A stretch of DNA of 64,000 bases from Sandaracinaceae bacterium (lineage in GTDB: Bacteria; Myxococcota_A; Polyangia; Polyangiales; Sandaracinaceae). The notes under the pieces are model-generated. The model searched no databases, was not told the DNA's origin, and was given only the letters and a program-made list of their open reading frames with translations. The stretch lies in the NCBI GenBank assembly GCA_019637095.1, contig JAHBWG010000002.1, forward strand, positions 124,001-188,000, given 5' to 3'. This document shows, piece by piece, positions 29,504-63,286 of this stretch; the stretch's first letter is position 1, and the number at the start of each line of letters is the position of its first letter. Both the position numbers and the translations under genes were made by a program.

Positions 29504-31348
29504 ATGGCGGTTTATCGGTTCCCGGGGCGAAGGCCTGCGAAATCGGCTTGGAGGAGGGATCCGGATCCTGCATCGTCCGCCGCCATGGCGATGGGCCGCG
29601 TGATCCCGCTCTTCCCCGGCGCGCAGGCCGAGGCGCCAGCTGGTGTGGCGAGCAGCGTCGGCGCGCGCCGAGGTGTGCGCGTGCGGGCGTGTGATCCCCA
29701 GGCGGCGCGTGCGCTCGGCGAGGCGTGCGGCGTCGGTCCGAGCGCGGCGCAGATCATGTGGCACCGCGGCGTTCGCGACCCGGAGGCGGCGAGGGATTAC
29801 CTCTCGCCGCGCCTCGCCGGGCTGACGCCGCCGGAGGGGATGGCGGATCGCGAGGTCGCCGCCGACCGGCTCGCGCGCGCGGTACGCGAACAGGAGACGG
29901 TCGCGGTCTTCGGGGACTACGACGTGGACGGCACCACGAGCGCGGCGATCCTCGGCGGGATCCTCGAGCAGCTCGGCGCCGACGTTCGGGTGCTCGTCGC
30001 CAACCGCTTCGAGGGCGGGTACGGCTTCTCGCAGCCGGCGCTCGAGCGCGCGCTCGCGACGCGTGCGAGCCTGATCGTCACGACCGACTGCGGCTCGAGC
30101 GATCACGAGCGGATCGCTCGGGCGCGCGAGCGCGGCGTCGACGTCGTCGTCGTCGATCACCACCTCGTGCCCGACGAGCCGCTCCCCGCGCTCGCGTTCC
30201 TCAACCCTCACCGCCCCGACTGCGGCTTCCCGTACAAGGGGCTCTGCAGCGCTGGCCTCGCGCTGAGCGTCGGGGCGGCGGTGCGCGCGGCGGTCGACAG
30301 CCCGCTCGACCTGCGGACCTGGCTCGACCTCGTCGCGCTCGGAACGATCGCGGACGTCGCGCCGCTCGACGGGGACAACCGCCGGCTCGTCAAGGCGGGT
30401 CTCTTGCGCGTGGGCGCGCCCCGCGCGCGCCCGGGGATCGAGGCGCTCCGCGAGGCGGCGCGCCTGAAGCCGGGCACGCCGGTCGGCGGGATGGACGTCG
30501 CGTTCCGGCTCGCGCCGCGGCTCAACGCGGCGGGTCGCCTCGGCGATCCCGAGATCACGCTGCGCCTGCTTCGGGCGACGACGCTCTCCGAGGCGCGCAT
30601 GCTCGCGGCGCGGATCGAGCTCATCAACCAGGAGCGCAAGGAGATCGAGCGTCGCATCACCGAGGAGGCGATCGCGCAGGTCGAGGCGGTGTACGGCGCG
30701 CGGACCGACGGCGGGATCGTGGCCGCCGCCGAGGGGTGGCACCGGGGCGTGGTCGGCATCGTCGCCGCGCGCTTGGTCGAGCGCTTCGACGCGCCCGCGG
30801 TGGTGATCGCGCTCGAGGACGGCGTCGGCCACGGGAGCTGTCGCACGCCTGACGGCTTCTCCATCTATGACGCGGTCCACGCGTGCCGCAGCCACCTCGA
30901 CAAGTTCGGCGGACACGCCGCGGCGGCGGGGCTGAGCCTGCGGGCGTCGCGGCTCGACGCGTTCCGTGCGGACTTCGACGACACCTGTCGCGCGACGCGA
31001 GCTTCGTTGCCGCCGCTCGACGCCACGCCCTGGGTGGACGTCGTGATCGGGGAGGGCTTCCCGCTGCCGTCGGCGGCCGAGCTCGCGGCGCTCGAGCCGG
31101 TGGGCGAGGGCAACGCGGAGCCGCAGTTCCTACTGGAAGGTGCGCAGGTGCTCTCCGCTTCCGTGGTCGGCCAGGGGCACCTCAAGCTCTCGTTGCGTGC
31201 GGGAGGCCGCACCCTGGCTGCGTTCGGCTGGGAGCTCGGCGACCTCGCGGGCGAGGTCGGCGCCACCGTCGATGTGCACGGGAGCTTGCGCCCCGACACG
31301 TGGCGTGGCGGCGACGCGATCGAGCTCAAGATCGGCGCGATCCTCTGA
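29504..31348 (+). CDS. recJ: Single-stranded-DNA-specific exonuclease RecJ
   Basis: A 614-residue 5'-3' ssDNA exonuclease of recombination and mismatch repair. Motifs of the DHH/DHHA1 phosphoesterases are all present: FGDYDVDGTTS, TTDCGSSD, VVVDHHLVP (the DHH triad), GHGSCRTPDG and the DHHA1 motif KFGGHAAAAG. The OB fold occupies the last ~110 residues. The first ~45 residues are not conserved; ATG at 29591 is a possible alternative start. It follows secF, with a hairpin between. Its stop codon begins a copy of the hairpin repeat. Confidence 0.95.
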   Translation: MAVYRFPGRRPAKSAWRRDPDPASSAAMAMGRVIPLFPGAQAEAPAGVASSVGARRGVRVRACDPQAARALGEACGVGPSAAQIMWHRGVRDPEAARDYLSPRLAGLTPPEGMADREVAADRLARAVREQETVAVFGDYDVDGTTSAAILGGILEQLGADVRVLVANRFEGGYGFSQPALERALATRASLIVTTDCGSSDHERIARARERGVDVVVVDHHLVPDEPLPALAFLNPHRPDCGFPYKGLCSAGLALSVGAAVRAAVDSPLDLRTWLDLVALGTIADVAPLDGDNRRLVKAGLLRVGAPRARPGIEALREAARLKPGTPVGGMDVAFRLAPRLNAAGRLGDPEITLRLLRATTLSEARMLAARIELINQERKEIERRITEEAIAQVEAVYGARTDGGIVAAAEGWHRGVVGIVAARLVERFDAPAVVIALEDGVGHGSCRTPDGFSIYDAVHACRSHLDKFGGHAAAAGLSLRASRLDAFRADFDDTCRATRASLPPLDATPWVDVVIGEGFPLPSAAELAALEPVGEGNAEPQFLLEGAQVLSASVVGQGHLKLSLRAGGRTLAAFGWELGDLAGEVGATVDVHGSLRPDTWRGGDAIELKIGAIL

Positions 31349-31450
31349 GCTCGCCGAGGGGTGCTTCGCACCCCCCAGATCGAACGCGGCGGGGCCGCAC
31401 CGACGACCGTCCTGCGCGACGGGCTGGCCTCGATGGCGCGCTCGACCGCG
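31345..31450 (+). repeat. Stop-codon-linked hairpin repeat, copy 3
   Basis: CTGAGCTCGCCGAGGGGTGC overlaps the recJ TGA and equals copy 1 exactly. GGGGTGC/GCACCCC (31358-31374) forms a 7-bp hairpin with loop TTC. Further on, CGCGACGGGCTGG and CTCGATGGCGC match a module of copy 7 (minus strand, 60913-60944) with few changes, so the repeat is composite and at least 100 bp long here. Confidence 0.7.
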
Positions 31451-31532
31451 TGGGCGCTCGGTCAGTCGACGGTGGTTGAGCCGTGCGGTGGGTCGCTCCG
31501 ACGGAGCGTGAGCGGATCGGAGCGAGTGTGCG

Positions 31533-32702
31533 ATGCTACGGACCATCATGGAAGGTCCGGACCTGCGCGAGGTCGTCCAGCGGTACATCGGTTTTGGAGA
31601 GGAGGACAGCCGTGCTCTCGCCGGCCTGCACGCGCACGCGGCGCCACGGTTCGGACGGATCGTCGATCACTTCTACGAGTGCATCGCCCTCGACCCCGGC
31701 GCGAGCGCGGTCATGGCGGACGGTGCGCAGATCGAGCGCCTGAAGCGGAGCCTGCACGAGTGGCTGGCGAGCGGGATGCTCGGCCCGCACGACGATGTGT
31801 TCTTGGAGCGGCGCCTGCGCATCGGTCGTCGCCACGTCCAGATCGCCTTGCCCCAACGCTACATGCTCACGGCGATGAGCGTGATCCGCCTGGACTTGCA
31901 GACGATCTGCGACGACGCCTTGCGCCACGCGCCGGCCGAGCGGCTCGCCGCGAGCACGGCCGTCGACAAGTGGCTCGACATGGAGCTCGCGATCATGCTC
32001 GAGACCTACAAGGAGGACTCCGAGGCGCAGCTCCGGCGGCGGGAGCGGCTCGCGTCGATCGGCCAGCTCGCGGGGACGATCGGGCACGAGCTGCGCAACC
32101 CGCTGGCGGTGATCGAGTCCTCGCTCTACCTCCTGCGACCCGCGGTCGGCGAGGACGCTCGCGCGATGCGGCACGTCACGAAGATCGCCAGCCAGCTCCA
32201 GGTGGCGAAGGAGACGATCACCCAGCTCCTCGAGATGACGCGCGAGCGCGCCGCGGCGCGCGCGCGCTTCGACCTCGCCGCGCTCGCCGCCGAGGTCGTC
32301 GAAGCGGTCCCGCGTCCGCCCGACGTCGACGTCGGGGTCGCGATCCCGCCGGGCCTCTCGCTCGACGCCGAGCGGCCGCTCGTCAGCCGCGCGCTCGCCA
32401 ACCTCGTGGCCAACTCGGTGGCGGCGATCGGGTCCGGGCGCCCCGGCCGCGTCACGATCGAGGCTCGCGAGGAGGGCGACGAGGTGCTCGTGGTGGTCGC
32501 CGACGACGGGCCGGGGTTCGACCCGGAGATCCTGCCGCGCGCGTTCGAGCCGCTCGTGACGGGGCGCCCGGACGGGATCGGCCTGGGGCTCGCGCTGGTG
32601 CGCAACGTGTGCGAGCGTCACGACGCGCGCGTGAGCGCAGAGAACCCGGCCGGCGGGGGCGGCCGCGTGACGATGCGCTTCGGCGCAGGGGGGAGGAGCT
32701 GA
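31533..32702 (+). CDS. Globin-coupled sensor histidine kinase
   Basis: A 389-residue kinase. Residues ~10-165 look like a protoglobin sensor: RYIGFGEEDSRALAGLHAH at the start and IGRRHVQIALPQRYMLTAM, where the His fits the heme-proximal position. The kinase core follows: H-box GTIGHELRNPLAVI, N-box NLVANSVAAI, G1 DDGPGFD and G2 GIGLGLALV. This predicts a cytoplasmic, heme-based gas (probably O2) sensor that autophosphorylates. No transmembrane helix is present. ATG 31533 or ATG 31548 could be used. The stop overlaps the start of the twin-receiver gene (TGATG), and the following hybrid kinase also overlaps, so the three genes form one phosphorelay operon. Confidence 0.88.
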   Translation: MLRTIMEGPDLREVVQRYIGFGEEDSRALAGLHAHAAPRFGRIVDHFYECIALDPGASAVMADGAQIERLKRSLHEWLASGMLGPHDDVFLERRLRIGRRHVQIALPQRYMLTAMSVIRLDLQTICDDALRHAPAERLAASTAVDKWLDMELAIMLETYKEDSEAQLRRRERLASIGQLAGTIGHELRNPLAVIESSLYLLRPAVGEDARAMRHVTKIASQLQVAKETITQLLEMTRERAAARARFDLAALAAEVVEAVPRPPDVDVGVAIPPGLSLDAERPLVSRALANLVANSVAAIGSGRPGRVTIEAREEGDEVLVVVADDGPGFDPEILPRAFEPLVTGRPDGIGLGLALVRNVCERHDARVSAENPAGGGGRVTMRFGAGGRS

Positions 32703-33406
32703 TGAAGAGCCCGCGGATCCTCGTCGTCGACGACAACGTAGACCTCGCCGAGAACGTGGCGGAGGCCCTCGAGCTCGCGGGCGCGCGGACCGAGCTCGCG
32801 GCGAGCGGCCGCGAGGCCCTCGCCAGGCTCGCCGCCAACCCGCCGTACGACCTGGTGCTGACCGACATGCGCATGCCCGACGTCTCCGGGCTCGAGCTGA
32901 TCCGCGCGCTGCGCGCCCGCGACCCGGCCACCCCGGTGATCGTGATGACGGCGTACACCCGCGGCGCCGACCTCGACGAGGCGCGCGAGCGCGGCGCGCT
33001 CGAGGTGCTCGAGAAGCCGATCGATCTCGGCGCCGTGATGGCCCTCGTCGAACGGCTGCGCGACCCCGTCCGGGTGCTCGTCGTGGAGGACGACGCGATG
33101 CTGCGCGCGAACCTCACCGAGGCGCTGTTCGGGCTCGAGCGCGTGCTGCCGCTCTCGGCGGGCACCGCGAGCGAGGCGCGGCGCGTCACGGAGCGCGTGT
33201 GCCCGCGGCTCGTCGTGCTCGACCTGCGGCTGCCCGACGAGCGCGGCCTCTCGCTCCTCGACGACTTGCGCGCCGAGAAGGACTTCGAGGTGATCGTCAC
33301 GACCGGGTTTCCGAGCGAGGTCACCGGCGAGCTCGGCGACGCGGAGGTGCTCGTGAAGCCCTTCGCCATCCCGACGCTCCTACATCGAATCAAGGCGCTC
33401 TCATGA
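32702..33406 (+). CDS. Twin-receiver response regulator (REC-REC)
   Basis: A 234-residue protein made only of two receiver domains. Domain 1 (~1-115) has VVDDN, the acceptor in LTDMRMPDVSG and the Lys in LEKPIDLG. Domain 2 (~118-234) has VVEDD, VLDLRLPDERG and LVKPFAIP. Both keep all catalytic residues. With no output domain it should act as a phosphate shuttle or protein-interaction node between the globin-coupled kinase and the downstream hybrid kinase. GGAGGAG lies 5 bases upstream of the ATG. Confidence 0.92.
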   Translation: MKSPRILVVDDNVDLAENVAEALELAGARTELAASGREALARLAANPPYDLVLTDMRMPDVSGLELIRALRARDPATPVIVMTAYTRGADLDEARERGALEVLEKPIDLGAVMALVERLRDPVRVLVVEDDAMLRANLTEALFGLERVLPLSAGTASEARRVTERVCPRLVVLDLRLPDERGLSLLDDLRAEKDFEVIVTTGFPSEVTGELGDAEVLVKPFAIPTLLHRIKALS

Positions 33407-35250
33407 CGCCGCTCTCGAAGAGCCGCATCCTCGTGGTCGACGACAACCGAGACCTCGCGGAGAACTACGCCGAGATCCTCGAGCTGCGCGGCGCGTCGGT
33501 GCGCATCGGAGCCTCCGTCGGCGAGGCGCGCTCGCTCCTGTCGGACGACCTCGACGTCGGCCTCGTCGACGTGCAGCTCCCCGACGGGCTCGGCTACGAG
33601 GTGCTCCGCTCGGTCAAGGAGCGCGCCCCCGACGCGGAGGTGCTCCTCGTCACCGGTCAGGGCTCGCTCGACGACGCGGTGCGCGCGGTCGGCGCCGGCG
33701 TCTACGCGTACGTGCTCAAGCCGGTGCATCCGGAGACGCTCATCACCGACGTCGAGCGCGCGGTGCGTCAGGTGCGCAGCACGCGCGAGCTCCGGGCCAA
33801 GGAAGAGGCCTTGCGGCTCGCGCAGCGGACGGAGTCGGTCGCGCGGCTCGTGCAGGAGGTCGCGCACGACTTCAACAACCTCCTGACGGTCATCGCCGCC
33901 TACGCGGAGAACGTCGCCCTCGACGCCGACGATCCGGAGGAGATCCGCGCGCACGCCGACGGGATCGTGCGCGCGACGCGGCGCGGCGCCGCGCTCACCC
34001 GACAGCTCCTGACCTACAGCCGGCGCCGCGCGTCGCGGCCGGTGCGGCTCGAGCCGAACCGCATGATCGAGGACCTCGCGGGGTTCTGGCAGCACGTGCT
34101 CGGCGCGCGGATCCGCATGGAGGTCGCGCTCGACGCCGACCTCGGGAGCGTGCTCGGCGACGTCGGCCAGCTCGAGCAGGTCCTGATGAACCTCGTGATC
34201 AACGCGCGCGACGCCATGCCCGAGGGCGGGACGCTCCGCATCGCGTCCCAGCGACGCGTGCTCTCGGCGCCCGATGCCCGCGCGCACGAGCTCGCGCCCG
34301 GCGCGTTCGCGGCGCTCTGTGTCGCCGACACGGGGGCCGGGATGGACGAAGCGACGCGGGCTCGCGCGACGACGACGTTCTTCTCGACCAAGGGCGAGCG
34401 CGGGACCGGGCTCGGCCTCTCGACGGCGAAGTCGATCGTCGTCGAGCACGGCGGCGCGCTCGTGATCGACAGCGCGCTCGGCCGCGGCACGCGCGTCGAG
34501 ATCCTGCTGCCCGAGCTCGCCGCCGAGCGCGACTCGCGGCCGCCGAACCTGCCCGCGCCGCACGTGCTGCTCGTGGAGGACGAGGAGCTGCTGCGCCTCG
34601 CCGCCCGTGCGCACCTCGAGGGGCGTGGGTTCGTCGTGAGCGATCACGCGCGGGTGGCCGACGCGCTCGACGCCGCGCGGTCCGCGCGTCGCCTCGACGC
34701 GGTGGTGAGCGATCTGTCGCTGCCCGACGGGCACGGGGACGCGCTCGTGGCCGCGGTCCGCGCGCTCCATCCCGAGGCCGTCGCGGTGTACATGACGGGG
34801 CACGACCCGGAGGGCTCGTCACGAGCGGACGCGCAAGTCCTGTCGAAGCCCTTCGATCTCGAGGAGATCCCCCGGGTGCTCCGCAAGCTGCTCGACGGCG
34901 GCGAGGCGACGCGCCTCCCGCTGCTCTTGCTGGTCGAGGACGAGCCCGTGGCGCGCGCGGCCCTCACCGACCTGCTCGCCGATCGGTACGACGTGACCGC
35001 GGTCGGGAGCGCGGCCGAGGCCCTCGCGGTCGTGCGGCGCCAGCACCGCGGCTTCGACGTGCTGTGCAGCGACATCTCCCTCCCGGACATGGACGGCCGC
35101 GAGCTCTGGGCCGAGGTGCGCGAGCTCCACCCGAGCACGCGCGCGGTGTTCGTGACCGGCCGTCTCGACCCGGAGCTGCCCGCGGGCGCCGGCTACGTGC
35201 AGAAGCCCGTCGATCTCGACGCGCTCGAGCGCGCCCTCGCGGGCGAATGA
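33403..35250 (+). CDS. Hybrid histidine kinase REC-HK-REC-REC
   Basis: A 615-residue protein with an N-terminal receiver (~1-125: VVDDN, LVDVQLPDGLG, VLKPVHPE) and a HisKA/HATPase core (~145-375: VAHDFNNLLTVIAAYAE, LVINARDAMPEGG, DTGAGMD, GTGLGLSTAKSIV). Two C-terminal receivers follow (~385-500: DLSLPDGHG, LSKPFD; ~505-615: SDISLPDMDG, QKPVD). The HDFNN-type H-box is typical of NtrB/PAS-like hybrid kinases. No sensor domain or membrane segment exists, so input should come through the N-terminal receiver, presumably from the kinase two genes upstream. ATG overlaps the previous stop by four bases. No DNA-binding output gene is in the operon. Confidence 0.92.
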   Translation: MTPLSKSRILVVDDNRDLAENYAEILELRGASVRIGASVGEARSLLSDDLDVGLVDVQLPDGLGYEVLRSVKERAPDAEVLLVTGQGSLDDAVRAVGAGVYAYVLKPVHPETLITDVERAVRQVRSTRELRAKEEALRLAQRTESVARLVQEVAHDFNNLLTVIAAYAENVALDADDPEEIRAHADGIVRATRRGAALTRQLLTYSRRRASRPVRLEPNRMIEDLAGFWQHVLGARIRMEVALDADLGSVLGDVGQLEQVLMNLVINARDAMPEGGTLRIASQRRVLSAPDARAHELAPGAFAALCVADTGAGMDEATRARATTTFFSTKGERGTGLGLSTAKSIVVEHGGALVIDSALGRGTRVEILLPELAAERDSRPPNLPAPHVLLVEDEELLRLAARAHLEGRGFVVSDHARVADALDAARSARRLDAVVSDLSLPDGHGDALVAAVRALHPEAVAVYMTGHDPEGSSRADAQVLSKPFDLEEIPRVLRKLLDGGEATRLPLLLLVEDEPVARAALTDLLADRYDVTAVGSAAEALAVVRRQHRGFDVLCSDISLPDMDGRELWAEVRELHPSTRAVFVTGRLDPELPAGAGYVQKPVDLDALERALAGE

Positions 35251-35305
35251 GGGCGCGCGAACACTCCGTCGCACGAAGACCGTCGACCGATCGAGAGCGG
35301 GCGAG

Positions 35306-35361
35306 CGCGGCTCCGCCGCGTTCGGACGCGGGGGCGGCGAAGCACCCCTCGCCGAGCTCAG
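35306..35361 (-). repeat. Stop-codon-linked hairpin repeat, copy 4
   Basis: On the minus strand CTGAGCTCGGCGAGGGGTGC overlaps the stop of the enoyl-CoA hydratase gene (one mismatch to copies 1 and 3). CGCGGCTCCGCCGCGTTCG (35306-35324) contains a 6-bp stem with a TCC loop and is identical, over 19 bases, to copy 6. The unit lies in the 107-bp convergent gap to the hybrid kinase. Confidence 0.7.
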
Positions 35362-36143
35362 CGACCGGTCCAGCGCGGCTCGCGCTTCTGCATGAACGCG
35401 GTGAGGCCCTCGCGGGCGTCCTCGGTCCCGAGCAGCGCGAAGAGCTGGCCCTCGAGCCACGGGAGCGACTCGGCGAGCGCGAGCTCCGCCTGCCGGTGAT
35501 AGGCCGCGAGCCCCATCCGCGTCGCCGTCGGCGACTGCGCGGCGAGCCGGGCGGCGAGCGCGTCCACCTCTCGGTCGAGCGCGTCGTCGGGGACGGCGCG
35601 GTTGACGAGCTCGAGCTCGGCCGCGCGGCGGCCGTCGAGCTCGTCGCCGAGCAGCATCATCTCGAGCAGGCGCCGCTTGCTCATCACGCGCGCGAGGACG
35701 GCCATGATCATCATCGGGAAGAGCCCGCGCTTGATCTCCGGCGTCCCGAGGCGCGCGCTCTCTGCGGCGATCGCGAAGTCGCAGGCGGCGACGAGCCCGA
35801 GGCCGCCGCCCATCGCCACGCCCTCGACCCGCGCGATGGTGGGCTTGCCCAGGCTCGTGAACCGCCCGAGCAGGTCCGCGTAGCCGCCCTTGGGCGCGAG
35901 GGTCGGTCCGTCGCCGCCGCCCGCCATCTGCTTGAGGTCGCCCCCTGCGCAGAAGGCGCCGCCCGCGCCGGTGATCACCACGACGCGCACGGCGTCGTCG
36001 TCGCGCGCGTCGTCGAGCGCGTAGAGCAGCTCGTTGACCATCTGCGGGCCCATCGCGTTCTTTCGGTCCGGGCGGTGGAGCGTGACGCGCGCGACGCGGT
36101 CTGCGGCCGACACCCGGATCTGCTCGTAGGGGCGCTCCTCCAT
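35358..36143 (-). CDS. Enoyl-CoA hydratase/isomerase (crotonase family)
   Basis: A 261-residue crotonase-fold protein. The CoA-binding and oxyanion-hole segments are visible as GAFCAGGDLKQM and VEGVAMGGGLGLVAACDFAI. The catalytic position reads LGTPEIKRGLFP, with Glu retained. C-terminal ...SPTATRMGLAAYH fits the trimerisation helix. Substrate cannot be predicted; the neighbours (BKACE and MarR regulator) suggest catabolism of an acyl-CoA or beta-keto acid. ATG 36143 has GGAGG 7 bases upstream and follows the BKACE stop by 2 bp. Confidence 0.92.
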   Translation of the reverse strand: MEERPYEQIRVSAADRVARVTLHRPDRKNAMGPQMVNELLYALDDARDDDAVRVVVITGAGGAFCAGGDLKQMAGGGDGPTLAPKGGYADLLGRFTSLGKPTIARVEGVAMGGGLGLVAACDFAIAAESARLGTPEIKRGLFPMMIMAVLARVMSKRRLLEMMLLGDELDGRRAAELELVNRAVPDDALDREVDALAARLAAQSPTATRMGLAAYHRQAELALAESLPWLEGQLFALLGTEDAREGLTAFMQKREPRWTGR

Positions 36144-36145
36144 CG

Positions 36146-37051
36146 TCACGCCTCCGCGTGTCCGACCGCCTTCGCGGCCTCGCGCCCCGCCGCGACGTCG
36201 CCGAGCGAGAGGATCCGGCGCGCCTCCTCGACGGTGGCCGGCGTGCGGCCGACGTCGCGGGTCATGCGCGCCGCGACCTCGACCAGCGCGCCGTTCGACG
36301 AGGCCATCTCGCCGCTCGGCAGGTAGAGGTGGTCCTCGAGGCCCGTGCGGATGTTGCCGCCGAGCACGAGCGCGGTCGCGAGCATGCGCCAGTGGCAGTG
36401 CGAGATCCCGATGACCTCCCACTCCGAGCCCGCCGGCATGATCTTCGTCTGGAGCTGGAGCGACTCCACGGTCGGCGGGATGCCGCCGAGCACATTGACG
36501 ATGAACGAGAACTGGTAGGGCGGCTTCAAGACCCCCATGTCGAGCAGCGGCCAGATCCCGTGGTTGTGCCCCGTGTCGAAGCACTCGAGCTCGGGCTTGA
36601 TCCCGGCCTCGTTCATCGTCTCGAGGAGCTTGACGATCTTCGAGTACGGGTTCGGGAAGACCATGTCGAACGCGAAGGCCTTCTTGCTCTCCGAGTACTT
36701 CGCGTAGTTCATCGTGCCCATGTTGAGCGCGCCGATCTCGGGGCGATCCGCCCGCAAGTAGGCTTGCTGCTGCGAGACGTCCTCGAGGATCGTCCCCGTC
36801 GAGTAGTTGAGGATGATCGGGCAGCGCGCGCGGATCTCCGCCTTGATGCGCGCGAAGACCTCCGGCGCGAACGTGGGCGATCCGTCGGGGTTGCGGGCGT
36901 GGATGTGCACCACCGAGGCGCCCGCTTCGTAGGCGCGCCGCGCCTCCTCTGCGATCTCCTCCGGGGTGTACGGGATCGCGGGGCAGTGCTTACGGTTCGC
37001 GAGCACGCCCGTGAGCGCGCACGTGATCACCACCTTGTCGTCGAACGCCAT
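36146..37051 (-). CDS. Beta-keto acid cleavage enzyme (BKACE, DUF849)
   Basis: A 301-residue TIM-barrel zinc enzyme. It begins [14 protein letters not shown], followed by the metal motif [11 protein letters not shown] (His-x-His). [10 protein letters not shown] and [17 protein letters not shown] are the other family fingerprints. BKACE enzymes transfer the acetyl part of a beta-keto acid to acetyl-CoA; the founding member is 3-keto-5-aminohexanoate cleavage enzyme (Kce) of lysine fermentation. Substrate specificity is diverse and not readable here. It lies 3 bp after marR and is coupled to the enoyl-CoA hydratase. Confidence 0.93.
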
Positions 37052-43428: not shown

Positions 43429-44325
43429 ATGAGGGGGGAGCCGCGCGCCGCCGGCGCGCCGACCACACGAGCGCCCGCGCGAGAGACCTCGCGCGGGCCT
43501 CGCGCATGTGAGGTCTGGGGCGTCCTGAACGTCACGCCCGACTCCTTCAGCGACGGGGGGCGCTACCTGCACCTCGACGACGCGGTGCGGCAGGCGGCGC
43601 GGATGCTCGAGGAGGGCGCCGACGTGATCGACGTCGGCGGGGAGAGCTCGCGACCCCCAGGCGTCACCTACGGCGCGGGCTACGCCCCGGTGTCGGTGGA
43701 CGAAGAGCGCGCGCGGGTCGTGCCGGTGGTCGAGCGGCTCGTGCGCGAGCTCGGCTGCCGCGTGAGCGTCGACACCGTCAAGCCCGAGGTCGCGCGGGCC
43801 GCGCTCGACGCGGGCGCCCGCATCGTCAACGACGTCTCCGGCGCGCCCGCGGACGCGCTCCTCGACGCGGTCCGGGACCACGGCGCGGACCTCGTCGTGA
43901 TGCACTCGCGCGCGCGCGGCCGCGTCGACGCAGAGAGCACGCGCTACGAGGACGTCGTCGCCGAGGTCCGAGCCGAGCTGTTGCGCGAGGCCGAGCGCGC
44001 GCTCGCGCGCGGCGTCCCCCCGGGCTCGATCTGGATCGACCCGGGCGTCGGCTTCGCGAAGACGGCACGCCAATCGGCGGCCTTGCTCGGCGGACTGGAC
44101 GCGCTCGTCCGGACGGGGTACCCGGTGCTGGTGGGAGCGTCGCGCAAGTCGTTCATCGCCGAGGCGGTCGTGGCCGCGGGCGGCGCGCCACCCCCGCCCG
44201 ACGCGCGCCTGGGGGGGAGCCTCGCGGCGGTCGTCGCGGCGGTCACCGCCGGCTGCCGCGCCGTCCGCGTGCACGACGTCTTCCCGTCGGTCCAGGCCGC
44301 GCGCGTCACGGAGGCGATGCGCTGA
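43429..44325 (+). CDS. folP: Dihydropteroate synthase
   Basis: A 298-residue enzyme joining p-aminobenzoate to dihydropterin pyrophosphate in folate synthesis. All motifs are present: GVLNVTPDSFSDGG, DVGGESSRPPG, SVDTVKPEVA, IVNDVSG and GASRKSF. The N-terminus carries ~25 extra Arg/Ala-rich residues from ATG 43429. The stop overlaps the cdaA start (TGATG). ftsH-folP-cdaA-cdaR is a common bacterial order. Confidence 0.96.
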   Translation: MRGEPRAAGAPTTRAPARETSRGPRACEVWGVLNVTPDSFSDGGRYLHLDDAVRQAARMLEEGADVIDVGGESSRPPGVTYGAGYAPVSVDEERARVVPVVERLVRELGCRVSVDTVKPEVARAALDAGARIVNDVSGAPADALLDAVRDHGADLVVMHSRARGRVDAESTRYEDVVAEVRAELLREAERALARGVPPGSIWIDPGVGFAKTARQSAALLGGLDALVRTGYPVLVGASRKSFIAEAVVAAGGAPPPPDARLGGSLAAVVAAVTAGCRAVRVHDVFPSVQAARVTEAMR

Positions 44326-45275
44326 TGTGGCAGGACCTCGCGGTCTACGTCCATCAGTTCGTGAACCGCGACGCGCTGCGGGTCGCGACGGACATCCTCG
44401 ACATCGGCCTGGTCGCCTACCTGCTCTACCGAGTCCTGCTCCTCATGCGCGGCACGCGCGCGATGCAGATGGGGATCGGCCTGGTGCTGGTCTTCCTCGT
44501 CTACAACTTCGCCCGCCGGCTCGGGCTCATCACGCTGTGGTCGATCCTCGACTCGGTCCTCACCTACGTCGTCCTGATCATCGTGGTGATCTTCCAGAAC
44601 GACATCCGCCGCGCGCTGATGCGCGTCGGCTCGCGCAAGTGGCTGACGCGGGGCAGCGCGCGCGAGTCGCAGGTCATCGAGGAGGTGGTGAAGGCGACCG
44701 CGGCGCTCGCGCAGAAGCGGATCGGCGGCCTCATCGTGTTCGAGCGCGACGCTGCGCTCGACGAGTTCATCGAGGAGGGGACGCCGCTCGACGCGGCCGT
44801 CTCGAAGGAGCTCCTCTACAGCATCTTCGTGCCGAGCTACGAGAACCCGATGCACGATGGCGCGGTCGTCATCCGCGACGGGCGGCTGTGGCAGGCCGGC
44901 GTGTTCCTTCCGCTCACCGAGACGACCAAGCTCGAGCGCACGCTCGGCACCCGCCACCGCGCGGCGATCGGCGTCTCCGAGGAGACCGACGCGGTCGTCG
45001 TCGTCGTCAGCGAGGAGCGCGGCAGCGTGAGCCTCTGCTACGGCGGCAACATCGTGCGAGACCTCGACTCGAACACGCTGCGCAAGACGCTCGTCGGGCT
45101 GTTCGAGACGCCCGCGGGCAAGAAGGCCGCGGCCACGCCGCGCGATCGCGCGCGCCGCGCGAAGGAGTCGACGGGCAAGACGTCGGTGTCTTCGCCCGGT
45201 GAGGTCACCGCCGCCGAGCCGTCGAGCCCGTCGAGCCCGCCGCCCCCGAGCGCGACCGAGGAGCCCGCGCCGTGA
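44325..45275 (+). CDS. cdaA: Diadenylate cyclase CdaA (c-di-AMP synthase)
   Basis: A 316-residue membrane enzyme making c-di-AMP from two ATP. Three N-terminal helices (IGLVAYLLYRVLLLM; MGIGLVLVFLVYNFA; VLTYVVLIIVVIF) precede the DAC domain with the catalytic MHDGAVVI (DGA) and LGTRHRAAIG (RHR) motifs. The C-terminal ~45 residues are a Pro/Ser-rich tail absent from Firmicute CdaA. CdaR follows with a 4-base GTGA overlap; glmM, the usual third gene, is not next. Confidence 0.96.
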   Translation: MWQDLAVYVHQFVNRDALRVATDILDIGLVAYLLYRVLLLMRGTRAMQMGIGLVLVFLVYNFARRLGLITLWSILDSVLTYVVLIIVVIFQNDIRRALMRVGSRKWLTRGSARESQVIEEVVKATAALAQKRIGGLIVFERDAALDEFIEEGTPLDAAVSKELLYSIFVPSYENPMHDGAVVIRDGRLWQAGVFLPLTETTKLERTLGTRHRAAIGVSEETDAVVVVVSEERGSVSLCYGGNIVRDLDSNTLRKTLVGLFETPAGKKAAATPRDRARRAKESTGKTSVSSPGEVTAAEPSSPSSPPPPSATEEPAP

Positions 45276-57628: not shown

Positions 57629-57632
57629 TCAG
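57479..57632 (-). repeat. Stop-codon-linked hairpin repeat, copy 6 (five hairpins)
   Basis: Begins on the minus strand at the TGA of the FHA-GGDEF gene. Hairpins in plus coordinates: 57603-57619 (GGGGTGC/GCACCCC, 3-nt loop); 57574-57600 (11-bp stem with one G-T, 5-nt loop); 57540-57554 (CGCGGC/GCCGCG, TCC); 57513-57533 (CCCCATCGC/GCGATGGGG, CCC); 57479-57499 (GGCCATCGC/GCGATGGCC, GCA). Confidence 0.75.
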
Positions 57633-58516
57633 CAGCAGACGCGGTTGCGGCCGCCGCGCTTCGCTTCGTAGAGCTTCTCGTCGGCCGCCTTGATGAGCGA
57701 GAGCACGTCCATCTCGCTCCCCTCGAGCTCTGCGCAGCCGAGCGACACGGTGACGGGGATCACCTCGCCCTCGAACACGAACCGGCGCTCTTCGATGCGG
57801 CGGCGCAGATCTTCCGCGATCGACGCGGCGCCGGCGGTGTTCGTCTCGGGCAGCGCGGCGCAGAACTCCTCGCCCCCGTAGCGCCCGATCACGTCGTCGG
57901 GCCGCAGGCGGCTCTTCACCAGCGTCGCGAGCTCCTTCAGCACGTAGTCGCCGGCGAGGTGGCCGTAGTTGTCGTTGATCACCTTGAAGTGATCGATGTC
58001 GAACATCACGACCGAGAGCGGGCGCTGGTGGCGGCGCGCGCGCGGGATCTCGCGCTCGAGCGCCTCCATCAGGTAGCGCTTGTTGTTGATGCCCGTGAGC
58101 CCGTCGACGATCGTCATGTTGTAGATCGTCTCGTGGTACTGGGCCTCGAGGTCCGACCCCGAGAGGAACTTCACGATCGTGTCGCCGATCTTGATCTGAT
58201 CGCCGCGACGCAGCGGGAGCTCGCTGACCTGCTGATCGTTGACGTAGGTCCCGTTCGTCGAGTCGAGGTCGACGATGTGCCACGTCGCCCCGCGCTTCTC
58301 GGCGCGGCAGTGGCGCCGGCTCACCGAGTCGTTGTCGAGCACGATCCGGTTCTCCTGGCCGCGGCCGACCGTGAGCGGCTCGTCGCCCAGGATGTAGCGC
58401 TTGCCGAACTGCCGCGCGTCGCTCGAGTAGATCACGACGAGGCAGTCCTGCCCCTTGGTCTGAGGGCGCAGCTCCTCGAGAGGGGTGACCCGGGTCTTGA
58501 TGTCGGAGTCTTGCAC
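57629..58516 (-). CDS. FHA-GGDEF diguanylate cyclase
   Basis: 295 residues from GTG 58516. An N-terminal FHA domain (~25-115) shows LTVGRGQENRIVLDNDSVSR and HIVDLDSTNGTYVND, with the pThr-binding Arg, Ser and Asn in place. The GGDEF domain (~140-290) has VVMFDIDHFKVINDNYGH and the active site RYGGEEF, with a complete inhibitory I-site RPDD exactly five residues before GGEEF. So it should make c-di-GMP, be product-inhibited, and dock to phosphothreonine proteins. Soluble. Confidence 0.95.
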   Translation of the reverse strand: MQDSDIKTRVTPLEELRPQTKGQDCLVVIYSSDARQFGKRYILGDEPLTVGRGQENRIVLDNDSVSRRHCRAEKRGATWHIVDLDSTNGTYVNDQQVSELPLRRGDQIKIGDTIVKFLSGSDLEAQYHETIYNMTIVDGLTGINNKRYLMEALEREIPRARRHQRPLSVVMFDIDHFKVINDNYGHLAGDYVLKELATLVKSRLRPDDVIGRYGGEEFCAALPETNTAGAASIAEDLRRRIEERRFVFEGEVIPVTVSLGCAELEGSEMDVLSLIKAADEKLYEAKRGGRNRVCC

Positions 58517-61786: not shown

Positions 61787-63286
61787 TTGATCTCGTCATC
61801 GTACAGCTCCAAGGACGCCCCGAGGGTCCTCGTCGTCGACGACGAGCAGGTCATCCGCGAGATCCTCGCGGACTTCTTGTCGATGGAGGGGTTCTTCGTC
61901 CGCACGGCGGAGGACGGCAGCGCGGCGCTCGTCGAGCTGTCGCGCAACCACTACGACCTCGTCCTGTCCGACCTGAAGATGCCCAACATGGGCGGGCTGG
62001 AGCTGCTGCAGGCGATCAGCAAGCACGCGCCCAACGTCGTGACCGTCATCATGACCGGGTTCGGGACGGTCGAGACGGCCATCGACGCGATGAAGCGCGG
62101 CGCCTACGACTACATCCTCAAGCCGTTCAAGGTCGAGGAGGTCGTCCACACGATCCGGCGCGGGCTCGAGAAGCGCAAGCTCCAGGCGGAGAACCTCCGG
62201 CTCAAGGAGGCGCTCTCGCTCTACAAGGTCTCCGAGGCCATCGCCGCGAGCCTCTCGCTCGACGAGGTGATGGGCACCGTGACGGACGCCGCGATCCACG
62301 AGGTCGACGCGGACCAGGTGGTCGTGCTGCTCGCGGACGGGGAGGGTGGCTACTACGAGCGCGCGTGCGAGCTCCACCCGGACTTCCGGCCGCGCTCGGG
62401 CATCGCGACGCTCGACGCGGCGGCGCTGGACGAGTACTTCCAGCAAGACCTCCCGCTGCGGGTGCGCGGGGACGAGGTGCGCAAGTACCTCGCGTCGGTG
62501 CCGCCGGACATCACGCCGCACTCGTTCATCGCGACGCGGATGATGATGCGGCAGCGCATCCTCGGGTTCCTCGCCGTCGTGAGCTACACGCGGGGCAAGC
62601 ACTTCGACGAGGGCCAGCGCAAGCTCCTGCGCATGGTGGCGAACCGTGCCGCCGCGGCGATCGAGAACGCGAAGCTCTACGAGGACCTGCAGGCCACGTT
62701 CAAGCAGACCATCAAGGGCCTCGCGAGCGCGATCGACAAGATGGACCGCTACACCGCGGGCCACAGCGAGCGCGTCGCCGCCTACGCGCAGCTCCTCGCG
62801 ATCAAGCTCGGGCTCGGCGAGGAGGAGGTCGAGATCGTCCGGCAGGCCGCGCTGATGCACGACATCGGCAAGATCGGCTGCGTGATGAACCTGAACAAGC
62901 CGGGCAAGCTCAGCCACGAGGAGTACGAGATCTTCAAGATGCACCCCGGCTTCGGGCGGGACATCCTCGAGCCGATCACGTTCCTGCACCCGCTGATCCC
63001 GGGGGTGCACCTGCACCACGAGCGCTGGGACGGCCGCGGCTATCCCCTCGGCCTGACCGCGCAAGAGATCCCGCTCATCGCGCGCATCATCAGCGTCGCG
63101 GACACCTACGACGCGATGACGAGCGATCGCGCGTACCGCAAGGCGCTGCCGCACGAGGTCGCCGTCAACGAGATCATCCGCTGCACCGGTTCGCAGTTCG
63201 ATCCGGACTGCTCGCACCCCTTCTCCGACGCGATCGAGGCGCACCGCGAAGACGCGACGGATCGCGGCGAGCCCATCCCCGAGTAG
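61787..63286 (+). CDS. REC-GAF-HD-GYP response regulator (c-di-GMP phosphodiesterase type)
   Basis: 499 residues from TTG 61787. Receiver (~10-130: VVDDE, LVLSDLKMPNMGG, ILKPFKVEE), GAF-like domain (~150-300: LYKVSEAIAASLSLDEVMG ... LLRMVANRAAAAIENAKLYE), and HD-GYP domain (~305-490) with HSERVAAYAQ, LMHDIGKIG, HHERWDGRGYP and VADTYDAMTSDRAYR, all metal ligands and the GYP loop present. Predicted to hydrolyse c-di-GMP in response to phosphorylation. No cognate kinase adjacent; the phosphorelay at 31.5-35 kb is one candidate. Confidence 0.95.
   Translation: MISSSYSSKDAPRVLVVDDEQVIREILADFLSMEGFFVRTAEDGSAALVELSRNHYDLVLSDLKMPNMGGLELLQAISKHAPNVVTVIMTGFGTVETAIDAMKRGAYDYILKPFKVEEVVHTIRRGLEKRKLQAENLRLKEALSLYKVSEAIAASLSLDEVMGTVTDAAIHEVDADQVVVLLADGEGGYYERACELHPDFRPRSGIATLDAAALDEYFQQDLPLRVRGDEVRKYLASVPPDITPHSFIATRMMMRQRILGFLAVVSYTRGKHFDEGQRKLLRMVANRAAAAIENAKLYEDLQATFKQTIKGLASAIDKMDRYTAGHSERVAAYAQLLAIKLGLGEEEVEIVRQAALMHDIGKIGCVMNLNKPGKLSHEEYEIFKMHPGFGRDILEPITFLHPLIPGVHLHHERWDGRGYPLGLTAQEIPLIARIISVADTYDAMTSDRAYRKALPHEVAVNEIIRCTGSQFDPDCSHPFSDAIEAHREDATDRGEPIPE

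Follow-up and report, generated by a model that had tools for sequence, protein, structure and literature searches.

A probable Nmp-type oxygen-sensing operon with a divergent hybrid kinase in a Sandaracinaceae bacterium

A three-gene operon from a Sandaracinaceae bacterium (assembly GCA_019637095.1) is probably a diverged oxygen-sensing operon of the Nmp type, in which the second-kinase stage has been swapped and which signals to an unlinked target other than the regulator NmpR. The operon lies in a stretch of 64,000 nucleotides of contig JAHBWG010000002.1 (positions 124,001 to 188,000, forward strand), which we call the window and to which the coordinates below refer. NmpRSTU is a hypoxia pathway of Myxococcus xanthus with the gene order nmpU-nmpT-nmpS, in which nmpU encodes a protoglobin kinase, nmpT a protein with two receivers and nmpS a receiver-kinase, and NmpR is the NtrC-like output (PMC6211767, PMC11841059). 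In M. xanthus, NmpU phosphorylates receiver 1 of NmpT and the receiver of NmpS, and these two receivers have near-identical specificity residues; receiver 2 of NmpT is described in the same 2018 paper as not phosphorylated by NmpU, and NmpT is proposed to be a phosphate sink (PMC6211767). The phosphorylated form of NmpS is proposed to be off, with NmpS phosphorylating NmpR at low oxygen (PMC6211767, PMC11841059). A relative of NmpU, AfGcHK, is described from Anaeromyxobacter (PMC6211767, PMC11841059). Its partner is an NmpT homologue, of which it prefers the first receiver (PMC6211767), and its locus retains nmpS and a divergent nmpR (PMC11841059). An earlier reading of the window, the original prediction, had seen in the operon a phosphorelay without output; we correct this here, as the operon is related to a hypoxia pathway that has been characterised.

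Results

The operon is composed of three head-to-tail open reading frames on the + strand, at 31533-32702, 32702-33406 and 33403-35250. The stop of gene 1 and the start of gene 2 have one base in common (TGATG), and a four-base overlap, ATGA, joins the stop of gene 2 to the start of gene 3; the overlapping three-gene layout originally described is borne out by these coordinates and motifs. Gene 1 encodes an NmpU-like globin-coupled histidine kinase of 389 amino acids with proximal His101 and phospho-acceptor His185, in which Pfam recognizes Protoglobin (2.6e-29), HisKA and HATPase_c. Gene 2 encodes an NmpT-like twin receiver of 234 amino acids, identified by receiver comparisons and by two stretches of Pfam Response_reg. 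Gene 3 encodes a hybrid kinase of 615 amino acids, which according to Pfam and domain hidden Markov models (HMMs) has the layout receiver-histidine kinase-receiver-receiver (REC-HK-REC-REC), with Response_reg in three stretches, HisKA and HATPase_c. Its receiver 1 (33424-33759) is followed by the kinase core (33823-34515), with phospho-acceptor His155, and by receivers 2 and 3 (34561-35235; 34561-34881 and 34924-35235, respectively), which are 41% identical to each other. As read from the translations, the acidic pair, the acceptor Asp, the Thr and the Lys are retained in all five receivers, which agrees with the predicted integrity of Asp and Lys and extends it to the other positions. Pfam found no output domain within the three-gene operon, and no sigma-70 promoters or terminators were found for it.

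The kinase core of the third gene sets the operon apart. It scored 153-167 bits against four CckA-like hybrids with the H-box HDFNNLL, and at most 72.5 bits against all other REC-HK kinases. In the tree, the core falls inside the HDFNNLL group with an SH-aLRT (Shimodaira-Hasegawa-like approximate likelihood-ratio test) support of 99, and grouping it with 24 NmpS kinases was rejected by the approximately unbiased (AU) test (p 1.94e-8). The protein has the organization of the HDFNNLL hybrids, an HDFNNLL core and then receivers; one such relative, at locus L166, was confirmed by Pfam. In a wider search, relatives of the full REC-HK-REC-REC length were found only in genomes G354 (42% identity) and G150 (37%), a soft negative for the others, as scoring covered just the top 3-4 candidates of each genome. 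No globin kinase was seen beside these two in the fetched stretches. At two loci, L166:5637-9474 and L222:5570-9385, genes for a kinase, a single receiver and a REC-HK-REC-REC hybrid follow one another; no globin kinase accompanies this recurrent three-gene set. Grouping the window's core with the S kinases of loci L034 and L035 was rejected as well (AU p 1.1e-4). The HEINNPL kinases of L034 and L035 were also considered as a second case of kinase exchange. In the free tree they lie outside the clade of NmpS kinases, but a placement inside it is not rejected (AU p 0.24), and we do not claim this case.

The receivers, in turn, resemble those of Nmp proteins. Each receiver of the operon was searched against 201 receivers from the compared loci. 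Twin receiver 1 matched mostly receivers 1 of NmpT proteins, and the top matches of twin receiver 2 were receivers 2 of NmpT from L038 and L034. For hybrid receiver 1, the 13 best other matches listed were all NmpS-type receivers. Further scoring gave the same picture, the 19 highest other rows all being NmpS receivers, with up to 95.5 bits, versus 27.5 and 31.9 bits for the first receivers of the REC-HK-REC-REC relatives at L166 and L222. By sequence, the twin receivers and hybrid receiver 1 are similar to NmpT receivers 1 and 2 and to the NmpS receiver. Helix 1 of a receiver helps to set the choice of partner. In twin receiver 1 and hybrid receiver 1, the presumed targets of the sensor, this helix is 78% identical, although identity over the entire domains is 40%; the remaining receiver pairs of the operon lie at 12-41%. 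Judged from sequence, the third gene has the appearance of an NmpS receiver fused to an HDFNNLL-REC-REC module.

The globin sensor domain of gene 1 comprises residues 16-164 (31578-32024, +; Pfam PF11563). Its proximal histidine, H101 (codon 31833-31835), which was to be checked according to the original prediction, is present and invariant in 14 of 14 aligned sequences. The AlphaFold model of the sensor kinase has a mean pLDDT (predicted local distance difference test) of 82.7. The predicted protoglobin-like domain models as a globin: it superimposes on the globin domain of AfGcHK (PDB-id 5ohe) with a Z-score of 22.9 and a root mean square deviation of 1.3 Å over 151 residues, and phmmer aligns the sensor to 5ohe at 3.8e-31. 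This match came from a separate structural comparison; the 50 rows listed by a Foldseek search were kinases. The sensor is, by its sequence, a relative of AfGcHK, and it has the features of a globin-coupled sensor, a protoglobin fold with a heme-ligand histidine fused to a transmitter; heme and oxygen binding are predicted. Homology lends good support to the proposed role of this soluble globin kinase in oxygen sensing.

Compared with M. xanthus, the sensor kinase is 42% identical to NmpU, the twin receiver 36% to NmpT, and hybrid receiver 1 45% to the receiver of NmpS. The operon has a soluble protoglobin-histidine kinase with a proximal histidine and an adjoining twin receiver, as expected of NmpU and NmpT, and lacks an NmpS-type core in the third gene and NmpR at the locus; no NmpR or sigma-54 site was detected upstream. 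We surveyed loci from whole genomes and from named genomes, scanned with domain HMMs made for this analysis. The sample consists of 74 loci with a fused globin-kinase, including the window, after five duplicates (L063, L066, L071, L092 and L094) were removed from the receiver search, the trees and the locus counts; loci shorter than 4200 bases and matches without a fused globin-kinase by our own HMMs were left out. The third gene is REC-HK in 54 loci, a fused REC-REC-REC-HK in one and HK-REC in one, and none was seen in 17, some of them at contig ends. The only REC-HK-REC-REC third gene among the 74 is that of the window. The fetched stretch held an NtrC-like gene at 40 of the 74 loci, although stretch lengths vary and some may be another NtrC-like gene. 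Pfam annotation of chosen members gave REC-PAS-HK for the genome's other NmpS, REC-HK for that of M. xanthus and receiver-Sigma54-HTH_8 for the NmpR candidate.

The order nmpU-nmpT-nmpS, found in the synteny check that had been suggested, recurs in M. xanthus and in other genomes, and therefore the arrangement of the genes is not due to chance; nor is it new. In the literature listings searched, no paper describes a third gene of this kind beside a globin kinase, although such loci might be drawn in the supplementary synteny figure that accompanies the 2018 paper. Two other loci of the survey are unusual. At L123:8815-12081, in Anaeromyxobacter sp. RBG_16_69_14, the globin kinase is followed by an HK-REC hybrid and not by a REC-HK protein, perhaps another change of partner. 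At L064:7420-10158, an orphan nmpU-like gene stands beside universal-stress and CBS genes, protein types that belong to the NmpR regulon of M. xanthus (PMC11841059).

Contig C143 of the same genome encodes another globin kinase, which is 42-43% identical to the sensor of the window. There, the globin kinase is followed by a REC-PAS-HK NmpS and an NtrC-like NmpR, and there is no twin receiver. No other NmpR was seen in this genome; the NtrC-like protein that ranks next has 49% identity and scores 400 bits, while NmpR relatives from M. xanthus and from the family score 543-726 bits, those of the family members being linked to their Nmp loci. No NmpR was found within the 19 kb examined near the operon. 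The claim that an output gene is absent holds locally; in relatives the output is NmpR, which this genome has at its second Nmp locus. In the sensor tree, the sensor of the window clusters with those of L034, L035 and L064, whose genomes are more distant within the phylum (support 95), and the NmpU of contig C143 clusters with its own family (support 97). None of the stretches of these four loci holds an NtrC-like gene, one stretch being a contig of 6.4 kb. In the draft genomes G107 and G164, the best NmpR candidates score 414 and 413 bits, no better than unrelated NtrC-like proteins. None of their NtrC-like proteins in the tree (n=5) falls in the NmpR clade, with 7 of 26 loci lost to the motif filter (2 of 4 from G107, 1 of 4 from G164). 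The related loci L034 and L035, two of the three sensor relatives, are in genomes without a detectable NmpR.

The intergenic region between recJ and the operon (31349-31532, +) was scanned for regulatory sites with a simple scoring of our own against mononucleotide shuffles, over 350 bases upstream that reach into recJ. The best sigma-54-like site scored 6.5, equalled by 80% of the shuffles, and the best pair of NmpR half-sites 8/10, equalled by 46%. The positive control from M. xanthus scored 9.5 and 9, respectively. Sites above shuffles were seen in M. xanthus, Archangium and G287.

The recJ-crotonase interval, 29504-36584, in which the operon stands, is a variable site in the family: L185, L187 and L188 carry unrelated genes there, over roughly 4 kb. 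RecJ was found in 9 of 10 family genomes, including the window's own. All three family relatives in which both ends were seen carry unrelated genes in the interval, and none of six fetched stretches showed a globin, receiver or kinase domain. Presence is patchy in the family of G107 (3 of 13 genomes). The sensor tree, this patchy presence and the unrelated genes in the interval together suggest horizontal arrival of the operon, although an old duplication with loss elsewhere may be the origin instead.

Other signalling genes of the window were considered as outputs. They encode a REC-GAF-HD-GYP response regulator (61787-63286, +), likely a cyclic di-GMP phosphodiesterase, and a diguanylate cyclase-like FHA-GGDEF protein (57629-58516, -). 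Both are 22-26 kb away with nothing linking them to the operon, and they were rejected. The window also holds a CdaA-type diadenylate cyclase with a DAC domain (44325-45275, +). The whole genome has four matches to the histidine phosphotransfer (Hpt) domain, none on the contig of the window and one in a frame of 208 amino acids.

Discussion

The anatomy of the operon, its kinship with Nmp and the absence of a linked output are clear from the sequence comparisons, and on these we base our reading of a diverged Nmp-type operon with an exchanged second kinase. Its mechanism can be sketched by analogy. From M. xanthus and AfGcHK, oxygen on the heme would lead the sensor to autophosphorylate at His185, and the phosphate would pass to twin receiver 1, as a sink, and to hybrid receiver 1. 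The phosphorylated hybrid receiver 1 would gate, and probably inhibit, the kinase of the hybrid. At falling oxygen, this kinase would autophosphorylate at His155 and, as in hybrids with terminal receivers, the phosphate would move to receivers 2 and 3 and from there, probably by way of an Hpt protein encoded elsewhere, reach a target that is not NmpR. Whether the gate opens or closes is here taken from M. xanthus, and a foreign kinase core could reverse it. Since the core of the second kinase is not that of NmpS, the target is likely to be unlinked and different; the original prediction, which also pointed to an unlinked target, may have been right in this and had missed that ground for it.

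Several points weigh against this reading. Phosphotransfer, heme binding and the direction of control are all predicted here. The AU tests of receiver 1, with few columns (113), rejected no tested placement, those with non-Nmp receivers included: p was 0.45 with all D1 and 0.36 with L166/L222. The genome of L064, the third sensor relative, keeps an NmpR-like gene elsewhere. Finally, at least five ordinary Nmp loci, some with approximate starts, are also low in the sigma-54 scan.

Three other explanations have to be weighed. The operon could be a second Nmp copy that still ends in the genome's single NmpR, with the hybrid phosphorylating NmpR and the extra receivers acting as buffers. NmpR is indeed in the genome and the front-end proteins are Nmp-like; however, the kinase core is unrelated to that of NmpS, no NmpR-type site precedes the operon, and the related loci L034 and L035 do without a detectable NmpR, which makes this explanation unlikely. 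Slightly less probable again is that the hybrid serves within the circuit as a phosphate dump or integrator: receivers 2 and 3 and the twin receiver would mainly buffer phosphate for the globin kinase, with cross-talk to the NmpS receiver encoded on contig C143 as the true output. The similarity of the two sensors, the proposed role of NmpT as a sink (PMC6211767) and the missing twin receiver at the other locus would fit such an arrangement. Against it, the sensors form separate lineages in the tree, and the helix-1 letters of the other NmpS receiver are unlike those of the presumed targets in the window.

The original prediction had favoured a classical linear phosphorelay, from the sensor through the twin receiver as shuttle to the hybrid and an unlinked target. 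The catalytic residues kept in all five receivers are compatible with it. However, no histidine phosphotransfer domain stands between the twin receiver and the hybrid, and the precedent, as described in PMC6211767, differs at both steps: NmpT accepts phosphate from NmpU on receiver 1 only, as a proposed sink, which speaks against a shuttle, and NmpU acts directly on the receiver of NmpS, proposedly to switch the second kinase off, which speaks against a single multi-step line. We consider such a relay very improbable.

For an exchanged second kinase, we propose, more tentatively and as somewhat short of an even chance, that a whole oxygen-sensing front end (globin kinase, sink and gating receiver) has been reused with a foreign CckA-like kinase and two receivers and freed from NmpR, with an ordinary Nmp pathway in the same cell. 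If true, this would be a natural rewiring of a two-component system in which the stage that follows the gating receiver was replaced, and would give one bacterium two insulated oxygen circuits. Laboratory rewiring of two-component systems usually alters specificity residues. The locus suggests that nature can exchange the kinase behind a retained gating receiver. As the genome retains the ordinary pathway too, the insulation of the circuits from each other is directly testable.

Among known systems, the HDFNNLL (CckA/ShkA-type) hybrids share with the third gene the core followed by receivers, and L166 and L222 also have its REC-HK-REC-REC layout; however, their first receivers are not NmpS-like and no globin kinase was seen in their fetched stretches. 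ShkA has two receivers and an Hpt partner, and its first receiver is a pseudo-receiver, unlike that of the window's hybrid, which has the Asp. The pseudo-receiver is central in this kinase (PMC7010744). The best PDB sequence match of the hybrid is LvrB of Leptospira (PDB-id 8vc9), which also has a receiver ahead of the kinase, although the match spans only the receiver and kinase of the hybrid. To our knowledge, LvrB has no globin kinase partner. AfGcHK of Anaeromyxobacter sp. Fw109-5 has the same globin fold, proximal histidine and twin-receiver partner, and differs in that its locus includes nmpS and a divergent nmpR. The closest parallel is NmpRSTU, with the same order of a protoglobin kinase, a twin receiver and a protein with an N-terminal receiver before its kinase; the operon of the window departs from it in having a kinase core of another class with two extra receivers in the third gene, and neither a linked NmpR nor a detected upstream sigma-54/NmpR site. 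The type of pathway is already known, and the architecture of the third gene is the variation.

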